NCBI GenBank assembly: GCA_902790525.1
Contig: CADASI010000023.1
Span: 1-40,451, forward strand
Source of the DNA: an uncultured Eubacteriales bacterium
Lineage (GTDB): Bacteria; Bacillota; Clostridia; Christensenellales; Aristaeellaceae
DNA length: 40,451 nucleotides
Direction of reading: 5' to 3'
Shown here: positions 24,027 to 29,976 of the stretch, piece by piece
Numbering within the stretch: position 1 is the first letter of the stretch
Layout of the letters: each line of letters opens with the position of its first letter
Translations under genes and position numbers: made by a program
Notes under the pieces: generated by a model
What the model was told of the DNA's origin: nothing
Databases searched by the model: none
What the model saw: the letters and a program-made list of their open reading frames with translations, nothing else

Positions 24027-24064
24027 AAAAAATCAAGTGCCGACAGTCGTGAGACTGTCGGCAC
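24027..24064 (-). terminator. Rho-independent terminator of the opp operon
   Basis: A perfect 12-bp stem (GTGCCGACAGTC / GACTGTCGGCAC) with a four-base loop is followed on the minus strand by TTGATTTTTTA. It lies 18 bases after the oppA stop codon. The clearest terminator in the window. Confidence 0.9.
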
Positions 24065-24082: not shown

Positions 24083-25771
24083 TCAGCGGCCGAACTGCAC
24101 GTCGTTGTTGCCGGAATCAGTGGTCCACATCTCCAGCATGTTGATGGGATCGTTGAAGTCGGCGAGCCAGCCGTTGCGGGCTACGTCGTAGTTGCCGGCC
24201 TTGCGGTCGTTCAGGAACACGTTCCAGTCGCAGGTGCGGATGGTCATGTTGATGCCCACGGCCGCCAGGTCCTGCTGCATGCACTCGGCGATGGCGATGT
24301 GGGCGGAGGACTCGTTGGTCAGGTACTCGAAGGAGATGGGGGTGTTGGCGGACAGCATGCCGTTGTCGTCGAACTCAAAGCCCGCTTCCTTCAGCAGCTC
24401 GATGGCGCCGTCCACGTCGACCTCGAAGTCGTAGTAGCCGGCCAGCGCCTCGCCGTCGGCGGTCTCGGCGGTCACGGGATAGGTGTAGGCGTCGTCGTTG
24501 ACCTTGAACACGCCGCCGTTGCCGTCGGCCATGCCCTCGGGGATGAAGGCGTTGGCGGGCTTCTGCTCGCACTGGCCCACGGTCTCGATGATGTACTCGC
24601 GGTCGATCAGCTTGGAGATGCCCTTGCGCATCGCGGCGGCCTGCTCCACGGTCATGCCGTCAAACAGCTTGGACTTGATGTTGAAGTTCATATAGTAGGT
24701 GCCCAGGTTGTCGATGATGTGGAACTCGGGATCGTCCTTGAGGGTCTGGATCTCGTCGGTGGGCACGGAGTCGATGAAGTCCACGTCGCCGGCCTGATAG
24801 GCGGCATAGATGGCGGTGTCGTCGGCGGAGAGCATGAACTCCAGCTTCTCCAGCTTCACGTTGTCGGCATCCCAGTAGTTGGGGTTCTTGGTGTAGACCA
24901 TGGACTCGTTGTGGGTCCACTCGGTCAGCACATAGGGGCCGCAGCCCACAAAGCCGGCCTCGTTGGCCCAGGCGCCGGGGTTGTTCTCCCAGTCCTCAGC
25001 GGACTCGACGGCGGCCTGCTGCACGGCGTAGAAGGCGGGGAAGGCCATCAGGTCCAGCATGTAGGCGCAGGGCGCTTCCAGCTCGACGGTCAGGGTCTTG
25101 CCATCCTCGGAGGCGGTCACGGCCAGGTCCTCGGGATAGCCCTTAATGCCGTTGAACATATAGCTGTAGTCCGCGGCGGTCGCGGGATTGGCGGCGCGCT
25201 TCCAGCTGTACTCGAAGTCCTTGGCGGTCAGCTCGCTGCCGTCGGACCACTTCAGGCCTTCGCGCATGGTGAAGGTGTAGGTCAGGCCGTCCTCGCTCAT
25301 CTCATAGCCGGTGGCGAAGTCGGGCTGGAGCTGACCCTCGGCGTTGTAGGTATACAGGCCGCCGAAGTTCACGATGGCCAGGCAGGCGCCGTCCACGGAG
25401 CTGTTCAGCGCGGGATCGAGGTGATCCGGCTCGGACGCCAGGTTCAGGCGCAGGGTGTCGGAGCCCTCCACGGTCGCGTACTGGAAGTACTTGAAGCCGA
25501 ACAGGTTGGCGTAGACGCCTTCCACGGTGGAGCGCTGCATGTACAGGTCGTTGTAGTGATAGATCGGCACGATCGCGCCGGTGTCCATCAGGATGTCCTC
25601 GGCCTGGTGCATCTTGGCTTCGCGGGCGACGAAGTCGGTCTCGGACTTGATGTCCGCGATCAGCGCATCGTATTCGGTCCAGTCAGGCTCGGAGCCCTTG
25701 TCCGCCATCGCGGGGATGGCGCAGGCCAGGAGCATCAGCGCGGCCAGCAGGATCGCAAGCAGCTTTTTCAT
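24083..25771 (-). CDS. oppA: Oligopeptide-binding protein, apparently circularly permuted
   Basis: 562 residues, solute-binding family 5. After the signal peptide (1-23) comes a segment (about 30-102; EYDALIADIKSETD, AEDILMDTGAIVPIYHYNDLYMQ, FGFKYFQYATVE) that in this family normally forms the extreme C-terminus. The usual N-terminus (SDTLRLNLASEPDHLDPALNSS) begins only at about 104. The protein then stops at DSGNNDVQFGR, exactly where the usual C-terminal segment should begin. Total length is normal. The termini of this fold both lie in domain I, so such a protein could fold. The motif LLAC at 14-17 might be a lipobox. Start follows TTAGGAGG. It is the last gene of the opp operon, followed by a strong terminator. 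Confidence 0.88.
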   Translation of the reverse strand: MKKLLAILLAALMLLACAIPAMADKGSEPDWTEYDALIADIKSETDFVAREAKMHQAEDILMDTGAIVPIYHYNDLYMQRSTVEGVYANLFGFKYFQYATVEGSDTLRLNLASEPDHLDPALNSSVDGACLAIVNFGGLYTYNAEGQLQPDFATGYEMSEDGLTYTFTMREGLKWSDGSELTAKDFEYSWKRAANPATAADYSYMFNGIKGYPEDLAVTASEDGKTLTVELEAPCAYMLDLMAFPAFYAVQQAAVESAEDWENNPGAWANEAGFVGCGPYVLTEWTHNESMVYTKNPNYWDADNVKLEKLEFMLSADDTAIYAAYQAGDVDFIDSVPTDEIQTLKDDPEFHIIDNLGTYYMNFNIKSKLFDGMTVEQAAAMRKGISKLIDREYIIETVGQCEQKPANAFIPEGMADGNGGVFKVNDDAYTYPVTAETADGEALAGYYDFEVDVDGAIELLKEAGFEFDDNGMLSANTPISFEYLTNESSAHIAIAECMQQDLAAVGINMTIRTCDWNVFLNDRKAGNYDVARNGWLADFNDPINMLEMWTTDSGNNDVQFGR

Positions 25772-25855
25772 GGGTCGTTCCTCCTAAGAAAGATGTATTA
25801 TCTGAAACGGCGCGGGGCCGTTAGAGATTCGGGGAGTGGGGCGGACGCAGGGGTT

Positions 25856-25935
25856 CCGGACGCCCCGTGGGACGTCCCTACGGCGGCGTGCGTATGTTGG
25901 CGGGGTTCCCGGACGCCCCATGGGGCGTCCCTACG
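25856..25935. repeat. Two tandem palindromes between oppF and oppA
   Basis: CGGACGCCCCGTGGGACGTCCC (about 25857-25878) and CGGACGCCCCATGGGGCGTCCC (about 25910-25931) are both followed by TACG. Their starts are 53 bases apart. Each is self-complementary (GGACGCCCC / GGGGCGTCC). They fill much of the gap 25772-25944. The ends resemble the TAGGGGCGG palindromes at 31823 and 40247. Confidence 0.7.
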
Positions 25936-25944
25936 AAGATTCGG

Positions 25945-26913
25945 TCAGATGTGCGGGTTCCAGCAGGCGATGCTGTGGTTCGGGGCGATCTCCGCAAGCG
26001 GGGGGCGCTCCTGGGCGCAGCGCTCGGTGGCGTAGCGGCAGCGGGTGCGGAACGCGCAGCCGGAGGGGGTGTTCAGCGGGCTGGGCACGTCGCCCTCCAG
26101 CGGAATGCGCTTGCGCGCGCGGGCGGTGTTGGGGTCGGGGATCGGTATGGCGGAGATCAGCGACTGGGTGTAGGGGTGCGCCGGGTGGGTGATGATCTCA
26201 TCCGAATCGCCGGTCTCCACGATGCGGCCCAGGTACATCACCGCGATGCGCTGGGAGATGTGCTGCACCACCAGCAGGTCGTGGGCGATGAACAGGTACG
26301 CGATGCCCAGCTTCTTCTGCAGATCCTCGAAGGTGTTGATGACCTGCGCCTGTATGGACACGTCCAGGGCGGACACGGGCTCGTCGCACACGATGAACCG
26401 CGGGTTCACGGCCAGGGCGCGGGCGATGCCGATGCGCTGGCGCTGGCCGCCGGAAAACTCGTGGGCGTAGCGGCGGGCGTGGTCGGAGTTGAGGCCCACC
26501 AGGTTCAATAGCTCCGTGATGCGCTCGGCGCGCTCGGCCTTCGACTGGTAGAGCTGGTGGATGTCCAGCGGCTCGCCCACGATGTCCGACACGGTCATGC
26601 GGGGGTTCAGCGACGAATAGGGGTCCTGGAACACGATCTGCATCTTCTGGCGGAACTGGTGCACGTTCTGGGGCGTGATCCGGGTGCCGTCGTAGATGAT
26701 CTCACCGGCGGTAGGCCTGTACAGGTGCAGTATGGTGCGGCCTACGGTGGTCTTGCCGCAGCCCGATTCGCCCACCAGGCCCAGGGTCTCGCCGGGCTTG
26801 ATGGCAAAGGACACGTCGTCCACGGCCTTCAGGGGCCGGATGCCGAACCAGCCGGTGCGGATCGGGAAGTACTGCTTCAGGTTTTTGACCTCGAGGAGGT
26901 ATTCGCTGCTCAT
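25945..26913 (-). CDS. oppF: Oligopeptide ABC transporter ATPase OppF
   Basis: 322 residues. Walker [10 protein letters not shown] (48-56), Q-loop [15 protein letters not shown], signature [15 protein letters not shown], Walker [15 protein letters not shown], switch His IAHDLLVV. The C-terminal oligopeptide-family extension has the Cys pattern [11 protein letters not shown]. The ATG overlaps the oppD stop by four bases (ATGA). It forms the ATPase heterodimer with OppD on the cytoplasmic face of OppBC. Confidence 0.95.
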
Positions 26914-27914
26914 TTGGCAATGCCTCCCTTCGCTTCTTCATAGACCTGCTTGACGTTCATCCAGCAGGACGCCTTGTGGCAGTCGTTGATGTCCAGCTCC
27001 TCCGGCAGCTCGCTTAAGCATATCTTCATGCAGTTGTCGCAGCGGGAGGCGAAGGCGCAGCCCTTGGGCATGTTGGTCAGGTCCACCGGGGAGCCGGAGA
27101 TCGGGATCAGCCGGGCGTGGTTGGTATCCAGCCGCGGGATGGACCTCAGAAGCCCCTTGGTGTACTCGTGGCGGGGGTTGTAGAAGATCTCGTCGGCGGT
27201 GCCGCGCTCGCAGATGCGGCCGGCGTACATCACGATGATCTCGTCGCACATGTCCGCGATGACGCCCAGATCGTGGGTGATCATGATGATGGCCATGCCC
27301 AGCTTCTTTTGAAGCTCCTGCATGAGCTCCAATATCTGGGCCTGTATGGTCACGTCCAGGGCGGTGGTGGGCTCGTCGGCGATGAGGATGTCGGGCTCGC
27401 AGCACAGTGCCATGGCGATCATGATGCGCTGGCGCATGCCGCCGGACAGCTCGAAGGGGTACTGCTTCAAGCGCTGCTCCGGGGAGTTCACGCCCACCAG
27501 CTTGAGCATCTCCAGCGCCCGCTCGTCGGCCTGGGCGCGGTTGCGGTCGGTGTGCAGCATGATGGCCTCGCGAAGCTGGTTGCCGATGGTGTACACCGGA
27601 TTGAGGCTCGTCATGGGGTCCTGGAAGATGATGGACACCCGCTTGCCGCGGAACTCGCGCATCTGCTTTTTGGAATACTGCACGATGTCCTCGCCGTTGA
27701 ACAGTATCTGTCCGCCGGTGATGCGGCCCGGCTCCACCAGTATGCGCATGATGGAGTAGGCGGTGACCGACTTGCCGGAGCCGGACTCGCCCACGATGCC
27801 CAGCACGCGGCCCTTGTCCAGGTTGAAGGAAATGCCGTTGACGGCGCGCACCTCGCCAGAATCGACCTTGAAGGACGTACACAGGTTCTTGACCTGCAAA
27901 AGCGGTTCGTTCAT
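26910..27914 (-). CDS. oppD: Oligopeptide ABC transporter ATPase OppD
   Basis: 334 residues. Walker A GESGSGKS (42-49), Q-loop [16 protein letters not shown], signature [15 protein letters not shown], Walker [15 protein letters not shown], switch His in [11 protein letters not shown]. The C-terminal region is rich in Cys ([15 protein letters not shown], then two more), the type of cluster that in some DppD/OppD proteins binds an iron-sulfur cluster. Start six bases after the oppC stop, within one operon. Confidence 0.95.
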
Positions 27915-27920
27915 CCTGAA

Positions 27921-28997
27921 TTACCTCCTCAGCTTGGGGTCGAAGGCGTCGCGCAGGCCGTCGCCCAGCAGGTTGAAGCTCAGCACGATCAGGCAGATGA
28001 TGATCGCGGGGAAGACCATCTTGTAGGGGTAGCTCTGCATGCCGCCGCGGGCCGCATTGGCCAGCGAACCCAGGGACGGCATCGGCGCCTGCACGCCCAG
28101 GCCGATGAAGGAGAGGAAGCTCTCGGTGAATATGGCCGAGGGGATCTGGAGCGCCACGGAGATGAATATGACGGACATGCAGTTGGGCAGTATGTGCCGC
28201 CGGATGATGCGGCCTGACTTCGCGCCCAGGGCGCGGGCGGCCAGCACATATTCATTGGTTTTGATGGAAAGTATCTGGCCGCGCACCAGGCGCGCCATGC
28301 CCACCCAGTACAGTACGCCGAACACGATGAACAGCGAGATCATGTTGTTGCCCACCCGGGCGAGTATGGTGCCCTGCAGCGCGGAGCCGAGGATCTGGTT
28401 CAGCACCACCGACAAAAGCACCACCATCAGCGTGTCGGGCAGGGAGTAGATGATGTCCACGATGCGCATCATCACCATGTCCACCTTGCCGCCGAAGTAG
28501 CCGGAGATGGAGCCGTACAGAAGGCCGATCACCAATACGATCAGGCTCGCGAACAGCCCGACCGCCAGCGACACCCGCGCCCCGTAGAGCACGCGGATGA
28601 AGTAGTCGCGGCACAATTCGTCGGTGCCGAAGAGGTGCGGGAATATCTTCTGCCCCTCCTCGATGGCCTTCATCTCGTTCTTGGAGTAGGTCATCGGGGC
28701 CAGGTTCTTGGCGGTCTTGTCGCGCTTGCCGTTGACGGTGATCATCTGCTCGTAGCTGTACGGGTAGAACATCGGCACCACGACGATGGTCAACACCAGG
28801 CAGAACAGCACGATCAGGCTCATCATCGCCAGGGGGTTCTTCCGCAGCTTGCGCATGCCGTCGCGGAAGAAGGTGGTGGACTCGCGCATGGTCTCGTGCT
28901 GGGCCTTTTCGTCCTCCGAGGCCATCTCAAACTTGCTCAGATCCAGCTGGAGACTGAGGAGCTGCTTGCGGGGCAGCTTGTCCGTGTTGTAATTCAT
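27921..28997 (-). CDS. oppC: Oligopeptide ABC transporter permease OppC
   Basis: 358 residues. Start ATG 28997 is chosen because GAGGAGG lies eight bases upstream; an ATG seven codons earlier overlaps the oppB stop and lacks such a site. A cytoplasmic N-terminus of about 65 residues precedes the first span (about 69-93). Then comes a loop containing FPHLFGTDELCRDYFIRVLYGARVSL, the usual OppC entry (GTDxxGRD variant). The EAA loop AARALGAKSGRIIRRHILPN is visible before the last spans. It ends with GDGLRDAFDPKLRR, the typical family ending. Confidence 0.94.
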   Translation of the reverse strand: MNYNTDKLPRKQLLSLQLDLSKFEMASEDEKAQHETMRESTTFFRDGMRKLRKNPLAMMSLIVLFCLVLTIVVVPMFYPYSYEQMITVNGKRDKTAKNLAPMTYSKNEMKAIEEGQKIFPHLFGTDELCRDYFIRVLYGARVSLAVGLFASLIVLVIGLLYGSISGYFGGKVDMVMMRIVDIIYSLPDTLMVVLLSVVLNQILGSALQGTILARVGNNMISLFIVFGVLYWVGMARLVRGQILSIKTNEYVLAARALGAKSGRIIRRHILPNCMSVIFISVALQIPSAIFTESFLSFIGLGVQAPMPSLGSLANAARGGMQSYPYKMVFPAIIICLIVLSFNLLGDGLRDAFDPKLRR

Positions 28998-29010
28998 CTG
29001 CGCATCCTCC

Positions 29011-29922
29011 TCAGTCAAAGGTAATCTTGGGATCGATCAGCTTGTACACCAGGTCGCTGATCAGCGTGGCGATGACCATCAATACCGCCAGGAAGATCGT
29101 GGTGGCCATGATCATCGGGTAGTCCTGATTGTTGATGGAGCGCACGAACTCGGTGCCCAGGCCGCCGATGGTGAACACGGTCTCGATGACCATGGAGCCG
29201 GTCAGTATGCCCGCGATCATCGGGCCCACGTAGGTGACCACCGGGATCAGCGCGTTGCGAAGCGCGTGCTTGAAGATCACAAAGCCCTCCCGGACGCCCT
29301 TGGCCCGCGCGGTGCGGATGTAATCCTGCCCCAGCACGTCCAGCATCGAGGACTTCGTGAGGCGCGTGATGTAGCTCATCGGGTAGAGCATCAGCGAGAT
29401 CACCGGCAGCACGTAGTTGGGATTCTCCGTGGAGAACACGCCCACCCACTTGAGCTGCAGCGCGAACACCAACAGCAGTATCGTCGCCAGTATGAAGCTC
29501 GGCACCGACACGAACAGCGTGGTCAGGAATATGATCAGCCGGTCCGGCCAGCGGTTTCGGCAAAGCGCCGCCGTCGAGCCCAGCACGAGCCCCAGCACGA
29601 TGGCGCAGGCCGCCGCCATGCCGCCCAGCTTGGCCGACACGGAGAACTTCTCCCGGATGATCTGGGAGATGTCGCGCCCCGTCTTCAGCGAGATGCCGAA
29701 GTCCCCGTGGGCCAGGTTTTTCAGGTAGATCAGGTACTGCTGCCCCACCGGCTTGTCCAGATTGAAGCGCGCCTCCAGCGCGGCCTGCACCGCGGGGTCC
29801 GGGGCCTTTTCCTTGGAAAACGGCCCGCCGGGGATGGCGTTCATCGCAAAGAAGGTGACCGCGGATATGATAAACACGGTCACGATGGCCAACAGCACCC
29901 GCTTAATCGTGTACTTTAACAT
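29011..29922 (-). CDS. oppB: Oligopeptide ABC transporter permease OppB
   Basis: 303 residues. The first span begins at residue 7 (IKRVLLAIVTVFIISAVTFFAM). The EAA-type loop is RTARAKGVREGFVIFKHALRNALIP. It ends LVYKLIDPKITFD, typical of OppB (DPR..Y variants). Start ATG 29922 follows AAAGGTTG; the longer open frame to 29970 crosses the 5' leader hairpin and is rejected. First gene of the oppBCDF-A operon, with a clear promoter, an operator-like palindrome and a leader stem-loop. Confidence 0.94.
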   Translation of the reverse strand: MLKYTIKRVLLAIVTVFIISAVTFFAMNAIPGGPFSKEKAPDPAVQAALEARFNLDKPVGQQYLIYLKNLAHGDFGISLKTGRDISQIIREKFSVSAKLGGMAAACAIVLGLVLGSTAALCRNRWPDRLIIFLTTLFVSVPSFILATILLLVFALQLKWVGVFSTENPNYVLPVISLMLYPMSYITRLTKSSMLDVLGQDYIRTARAKGVREGFVIFKHALRNALIPVVTYVGPMIAGILTGSMVIETVFTIGGLGTEFVRSINNQDYPMIMATTIFLAVLMVIATLISDLVYKLIDPKITFD

Positions 29923-29940
29923 CGGGAAACAACCTTTCTT

Positions 29941-29962
29941 TTGCCGGTCGTGCAACCGGCAA
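29941..29962 (-). promoter_or_regulatory. Leader stem-loop of the opp operon
   Basis: TTGCCGGT pairs perfectly with ACCGGCAA around a six-base loop. It lies in the transcript leader, 18 bases before the oppB start and directly before the ribosome site. It may influence translation or mRNA stability. Confidence 0.55.
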
Positions 29963-29976
29963 TCATCCATTCCATA

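Follow-up and report, generated by a model that had tools for sequence, protein, structure and literature searches.

Circular permutation of an oligopeptide-binding protein in an Opp-type operon and changes of chain order in binding-protein family 5

Gene, operon, and chain order

The window, i.e., the whole stretch of 40,451 nucleotides analysed here, carries an oppBCDF operon on its minus strand, in which the last gene encodes a substrate-binding protein of family 5 (SBP_bac_5). The region comprises the following features.

24037..24064, minus strand: intrinsic terminator with a 12-pair stem and a T tail, 3' of the binding-protein gene
24083..25771, minus strand: gene of the permuted family-5 (SBP_bac_5) substrate-binding protein, 562 amino acids, ATG start
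24086..25462, minus strand: canonical N-terminal and middle parts, residues 104-562, profile positions 41-471, ending in ...SGNNDVQFGR
25466..25684, minus strand: canonical C-terminal segment, now in front, residues 30-102, profile positions 473-544
25703..25771, minus strand: putative signal sequence, residues 1-23, judged by eye (the model has a helix at 2-17)
25769..25785, minus strand: AGGAGG ribosome-binding site and start codon, exact match
25945..26913, minus strand: oppF-type ATPase, best match NF008453 at 402.7 bits, below the cut-off of 408
26910..27914, minus strand: oppD-type ATPase, best match NF007010 at 400 bits, below the cut-off of 575
27921..29018, minus strand: oppC-type permease, best match Opp3C at 320 bits, below the cut-off of 450
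29011..29970, minus strand: oppB-type permease, best match Opp3B at 315 bits, below the cut-off of 480

A preliminary description of this DNA credited the gene with a good start, a promoter-driven operon, and a terminator. The ATG is preceded by an exact AGGAGG, and the binding-protein gene closes an oppB-oppC-oppD-oppF row whose four members have Opp/Dpp-type models as best matches, with every score under the cut-off of its model. The terminator is present as a 12-pair stem at 24064-24037, and the region holds seven terminator-like sites against 3.3 in shuffles. The operon stands, whereas its promoter is only putative: the site 5' of oppB (30005-29977) is one of two promoter-like sites against 1.8 in shuffles, which is chance level. 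A 25-base palindromic repeat occurs twice between oppF and the binding-protein gene (25858-25882 and 25911-25935). It is dispersed across the genome, with 45 copies at one mismatch or fewer and none for the reversed control.

Sequence comparison confirms that the window protein is a circularly permuted family-5 binding protein. Alignment to OppA and DppE, which the preliminary description had asked for, finds the front segment homologous to the C-terminus of the family. When PDB chains were searched with phmmer, residues 102-426 aligned to residues 17-345 of Bacillus subtilis OppA (8are), residues 479-558 to 371-450, and residues 32-99 to 455-522, the true C-terminus of OppA, the last match being weak alone (E 0.0054). 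Residues 32-96 aligned in the same way to residues 451-515 of DppE (8ay0), with E 2.6e-8. Both proteins are homologous to the window protein over the whole chain, 8are being its best match in sequence and fold and 8ay0 the second by sequence, but their C-terminal 70 residues lie at the chain end, whereas those of the window protein lie behind the signal. A canonical-only HMM of 545 positions, derived from 24 proteins in canonical order, places residues 31-102 at positions 473-544, which are its last 72, and the remainder at 41-471. The front segment by itself scores 82.0 bits and the best of 5000 shuffles 9.5, which excludes chance similarity.

The canonical order of SBP_bac_5 proteins, which are cluster C binding proteins, is N-terminal, middle, and C-terminal part, whereas the chain order of the window protein is C-N-M. 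All segments are homologous to those of the family, the cyclic order is kept, and so is the total length, as expected of a natural permutant. The body reaches profile position 471 and the segment starts at 473, so the stop falls where the C segment would canonically begin; canonical relatives continue into the segment after the point that corresponds to ...SGNNDVQFGR. Thus, the permutation, the identity of residues 30-102, the position of the protein end, and the conserved length (562 amino acids, inside the range of canonical relatives) were all correctly described beforehand. The Pfam model SBP_bac_5 (PF00496, 'Middle') scores 293.4 bits against a cut-off of 32.4 but matches only residues 148-556, so the permutation is invisible in annotation. 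The NCBIfam OppA equivalog PRK15104 gives 203.6 bits over residues 106-559 only and does not reach its cut-off of 947. With the order hidden from both kinds of match, permuted forms are filed as ordinary peptide-binding proteins. Eight further family-5 ORFs fetched from the source genome (L002-L009) are all canonical against the profile.

Occurrence, fold, and putative function

The same order of segments, for which the preliminary description proposed a search, recurs in many genomes. A match of at least 83% identity that spans the junction was found in 18 of the 28 genomes of the genus (own genome included; counted by hand). At E 1e-95, 86 of 300 genomes of the family match (hand count): 56 span the junction (own genome included), two are partial and end short of it, and 28, at 45-49% identity, begin at residue 80-106. 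Nineteen of these 28 were fetched (L138-L156), and all 19 are canonical. About 25 additional residues are found in these canonical sisters at precisely the loop that carries the cut in the window type.

A genome_contigs search, from which the best 80 of 336 relatives were kept, gave 77 permuted ORFs, two fused doubles, and one ORF cut by a contig end; these loci were picked by similarity to a permuted query, so the counts are uninformative on frequency. Record titles of the best 80 loci name Lachnospiraceae, Christensenellaceae, Anaerolineaceae, and Chloroflexi bins. The oppB-oppC-oppD-oppF-binding protein row is present in 70 of the 80 (62 exact, eight with additional genes); in the other ten, the gene starts less than 280 bases from the start of the locus, with the upstream genes out of view.

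The source genome is fragmented (199 contigs), and a misassembled or chimaeric contig with a true gene of canonical order would give the same picture. This explanation has a negligible chance of being right, because the same junction is conserved, in one open frame, over many separate assemblies. The window order also occurs in two records without a MAG label in the title, Lachnospiraceae bacterium COE1 (a 1.3-Mb scaffold) and Proteiniclasticum aestuarii SCR006, and permuted forms cut at profile positions 303 and 382 occur in the single-contig genomes G636, G336, and G874. The permuted receptor is a widespread type, shared by many related gut bacteria, and not a one-genome curiosity, and it is among several separate permutations in family 5.

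An AlphaFold model of the window protein, with an input alignment of 46 permuted rows, has a pLDDT of 87.5 and a pTM of 0.84, with block means of 88-93 over residues 31-100. Entries of OppA, MppA, and DppE are its best Foldseek matches in the PDB, with 8are at the top (E 1.6e-35, TM 0.71 by target length); the Foldseek alignment follows chain order, and this TM is therefore sequential. Together, sequence and pLDDT suggest that the front segment occupies the old place of the OppA C-terminus. The peptide-Asp motif GWLADFNDPINMLEMW of the window protein aligns to GWLGDFNDPINFLELF of OppA. The motif GW-ADFNDPINMLEMW (GW-ADFNDPI), which we take to surround the Asp that holds the amino group of the peptide, is invariant in the 46-row alignment. 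Its homology and operon make the window protein the likely receptor for peptides in an Opp importer; it would fold and bind peptide between two lobes, as OppA does. It is very unlikely that the protein has lost its function and persists as a broken or neutral relic. Internal stops do occur in two permuted relatives, L193 and L270, which belong to other breakpoint classes, but the best 80 loci keep their frames open at 61-92% identity, the GW-ADFNDPINMLEMW motif does not vary, and the operon row is kept in 70 of the 80 loci.

Other breakpoints and the number of order changes

Cut sites in family 5 lie near profile positions 156, 303, 382, and 472, which define four breakpoint classes. In the model of the window protein, these sites are predicted to lie in loops or at the edges of short helices. 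A total of 244 distinct ORFs had an HMM hit, and after 17 partial ones were dropped, 227 remained: 100 canonical, 97 of the window type, 19 cut near 382, eight near 303, one near 156, and two doubles. A junction query was matched over its whole length (E 1e-25) in at least nine of 391 genomes of the class, and a junction profile in at least 11 of 398 genomes of the phylum, one of them with an internal stop; both counts include the source genome. A match over 45-175 in G458 in the class search was a false lead, as L164 is canonical, and so counting was restricted to matches that cover the junction query in full. A plasmid search matched 2560 records, of which H1, H2, H3, H8, H9, and H32 were inspected; the candidates from Sinorhizobium (H3) and Ilyobacter (H2) are both canonical by HMM.

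The cut near 382 is found in L160, L161, L163, and L185-L192, and also in L158 with L264-L268. The cut near 303 is found in L159, L162, and L273-L276, in L184, and in L269. Only L178, from an unannotated Subdoligranulum variabile plasmid record, is cut near 156; its relatives at 59-63% identity, present in three of six genomes searched, are canonical. L179 from the haloarchaeon Natrononativus amylolyticus and L180 from Salipiger are cut somewhere in 344-399. The front match of L179 reaches 48 bits, that of L180 is weak at 24.5 bits, and Pfam matches the later part to profile positions 1-285 and 1-278, respectively, plus a second stretch. Both were counted among the 227 ORFs and kept outside the trees and AU tests. 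A Neorhizobium protein is 54% identical to L180 over 218 residues; in Neorhizobium L259, only the later part is visible to the HMM. L193 (G1049) and L270 (G1227) are permuted genes whose internal stops mark them as pseudogenes or sequence errors.

Before alignment for the trees, permuted proteins were restored to canonical order. Near-identical rows were thinned, and the rows of the 62- and 82-protein sets were picked manually. The 62-protein tree requires eight order changes. AU tests reject one clade of all permuted forms (p 1.3e-41) and, in the 62-protein tree, one clade of the three position-303 proteins (p 6e-4). A clade of the position-382 forms with the L158 group was not rejected (p 0.053), nor was a clade of the window type without L166 in the 62-protein tree (p 0.09), and a tree that joins L159 and L162 but keeps L182 out is no worse than the free one (p 0.53). 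In the G612 family, whose closest named entries are Lachnospiraceae, 16 of 150 genomes have relatives at E 1e-130, seven canonical and nine of the window type. With relatives from this family added, a 44-protein tree requires four changes, three of them forced by starred branches. Here, AU rejects single clades both for the window type (p 5.4e-7) and for the seven canonical proteins (p 1.3e-57), and L166, L244, L245, and L249 together without L248 fit like the free tree (p 0.58). The window-type tests were devised after the trees had been viewed, so their p values are generous. The 82-protein tree requires ten order changes over the four breakpoint classes, nine of which are forced by starred branches. 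Three of the changes depend on the single sequences L178, L184, and L269, and without these, seven changes are left, by subtraction and not by a new run. The family of G728 consists of one genome, and the broken gene L270 resembles L269. Family 5 has changed chain order several separate times at a few sites.

Permuted and canonical proteins stand close to each other in these trees. In the body, permuted L248 shares 66% identity with canonical L166, and canonical L247 shares 68% with L252 and 66% with L253. In the segment, L248 is 74% identical to canonical L245, with permuted proteins as the next nearest, and L252 and L253 stay by L247. The canonical partner of the L159 group in G1272 has 62-68% identity in two stretches. 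By and large, the segment tree and the body tree give the same neighbours (no support values; segment of 70-odd columns). Gene conversion from a permuted donor was considered as the cause of the interleaving and set aside because the two trees, without support values, mostly agree.

These results make it improbable that a single ancient permutation took place and that the orders were scattered later by horizontal transfer, recombination, or tree error. Transfer between phyla is indeed likely, given the window type in Chloroflexi-named bins, and the test at p 0.09 in the 62-protein tree accommodates a single clade of window-type proteins that leaves out L166. However, one clade of all permuted forms is rejected, one clade of the window type is rejected when more relatives are present (with its generous p value), and segment and body trees alike put L252 and L253 by canonical L247 and L248 by canonical L245 and L244. 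With four breakpoint classes, one event is insufficient unless additional permutations are granted.

The window type could reflect a single permutation that was undone several times, with the canonical order restored, or else repeated permutation at the same loop, and we give the returns somewhat less than even credence. Permuted proteins make up most of the sampled clade, a group of eight (95/89) joins canonical L166, L244, L245, L247, and L249 with three permuted proteins, and the C-N-M-C-N-M doubles L089 and L090 contain a canonical N-M-C, all of which would suit returns. Against them, canonical L231 and then L246 with L250 branch first among the 82 proteins (next node 92/78, not starred), which suits canonical ancestry with repeated gain, and the canonical L166, L244, L245, and L249 can be held together without L248 at p 0.58. 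The base of the 44-protein tree is unresolved in this respect, and change counts are blind to gain versus loss. Taken as a whole, family 5 is probably a hotspot of recurrent and possibly reversible permutation, with at least four sites, reuse of the same site, and a range from Clostridia to haloarchaea and alphaproteobacteria.

Origin, known permutations, and the signal

The best explanation, which we consider very probable, is that the window gene encodes a working Opp-type ABC peptide receptor whose termini would have been moved by tandem duplication, fusion, and trimming. Two tandem copies would fuse in frame into ...N-M-C-N-M-C..., and trimming of the fused double at both ends would leave signal-C-N-M. 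The opposite trimming of a C-N-M-C-N-M double would give the canonical order back. Duplication, fusion, and trimming are named as a permutation mechanism in the accessible part of a methods paper (PMC11757225). The preliminary description suggested that this mechanism could be traceable, and it fits the tandem and fused relatives, but at the window locus no repeat joins the two gene ends. The repeats found there are pairs of 14-30 bases inside genes and a 36-base intergenic repeat.

Fused C-N-M-C-N-M frames of 1307-1329 codons are found in Anaerolineaceae- and Chloroflexi-named bins (L089, 5607-9593; L090, 5673-9593). L089 has a lipobox-like signal, and its units are joined by an Ala/Glu/Val-rich linker; the doubles are perhaps two-headed receptors. 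Because they are built from permuted units, they may be later duplications and not intermediates. L068, L037, and G012:C260 carry a further permuted copy in tandem, with about 61% identity to the window protein, a truncated upstream copy survives as a fragment in L061, and canonical tandem copies occur elsewhere (L168). L094 was considered as a half-trimmed intermediate and rejected, as its supposed second copy of profile positions 338-471 is an Ala/Glu/Val-rich linker.

Natural permutation is known from other binding proteins. According to the available sections of PMC4990184, TpMglB-2 (Tp0684) of Treponema pallidum, described as 'Type Ic / Cluster Bc', is a natural circularly permuted ABC binding protein, in which the first strands of the N-lobe now stand at the C-terminus and there is an additional, fourth crossing. 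It has a sugar-binding cluster B fold, unlike the window protein with its family 5 and OppA matches. The same sections place its relatives in Gram-positive gut bacteria and raise tethering as a possible reason, and they mention no repeated origin of the permutation. Glycine-betaine-binding and molybdate-binding proteins and CysB are related by circular permutation detected by structure (CPSARST, PMC2395249), with identities below 24% and partly between families, as far as the accessible text goes. In contrast, permuted and canonical neighbours in family 5 retain 66-68% body identity (L248-L166, L252-L247, L253-L247). No report of permuted family-5 binding proteins was among the matches listed in an open-access library; in the accessible parts of PMC10326533, PMC2588589, and PMC8023567, both words are present but used apart. 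Permutation is already known in sugar- and betaine-binding proteins, and what is surprising here is repeated, partly convergent permutation.

Most natural circular permutations on record link distant proteins, so their origin is seldom traceable. With neighbours at 66-68% identity, surviving doubles, and repeated changes, models of origin (duplication and trimming versus fission and fusion), site preference, and reversibility become testable. If family 5 is indeed such a hotspot, it would supply natural examples of each stage of the duplication-and-trimming model, from before through double to after, and the best attachment point for a membrane tether would perhaps be the driver. For biosensor design, nature has already tried out OppA-type receptors in permuted form, with the termini relocated to four sites.

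The cut relocates the signal or anchor, which stands no longer at the canonical start but at the loop ahead of the C-terminal segment; this loop presumably belongs to the other lobe, by OppA domain limits. As the protein start now precedes the old C-terminal segment, the tether or free end would lie elsewhere on the protein. For the signal sequence of the window protein, lipoprotein cleavage at Cys17 and signal peptidase I cleavage after AMA could both be read from the residues. Judged by eye, a lipobox-like signal is present in the seven non-window ORFs L094, L178, L158, L159, L160, L162, and L163 and in L184, and absent from L185 and L192; L180 has a TAT signal. In near relatives of the window protein, signal peptidase I cleavage is also conceivable by eye. 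Some close relatives, e.g., L077 and L092, apparently lack the lipobox cysteine in the stretch that corresponds to window residues 14-25 (by eye), which may mean that this lineage releases its receptor instead of anchoring it.
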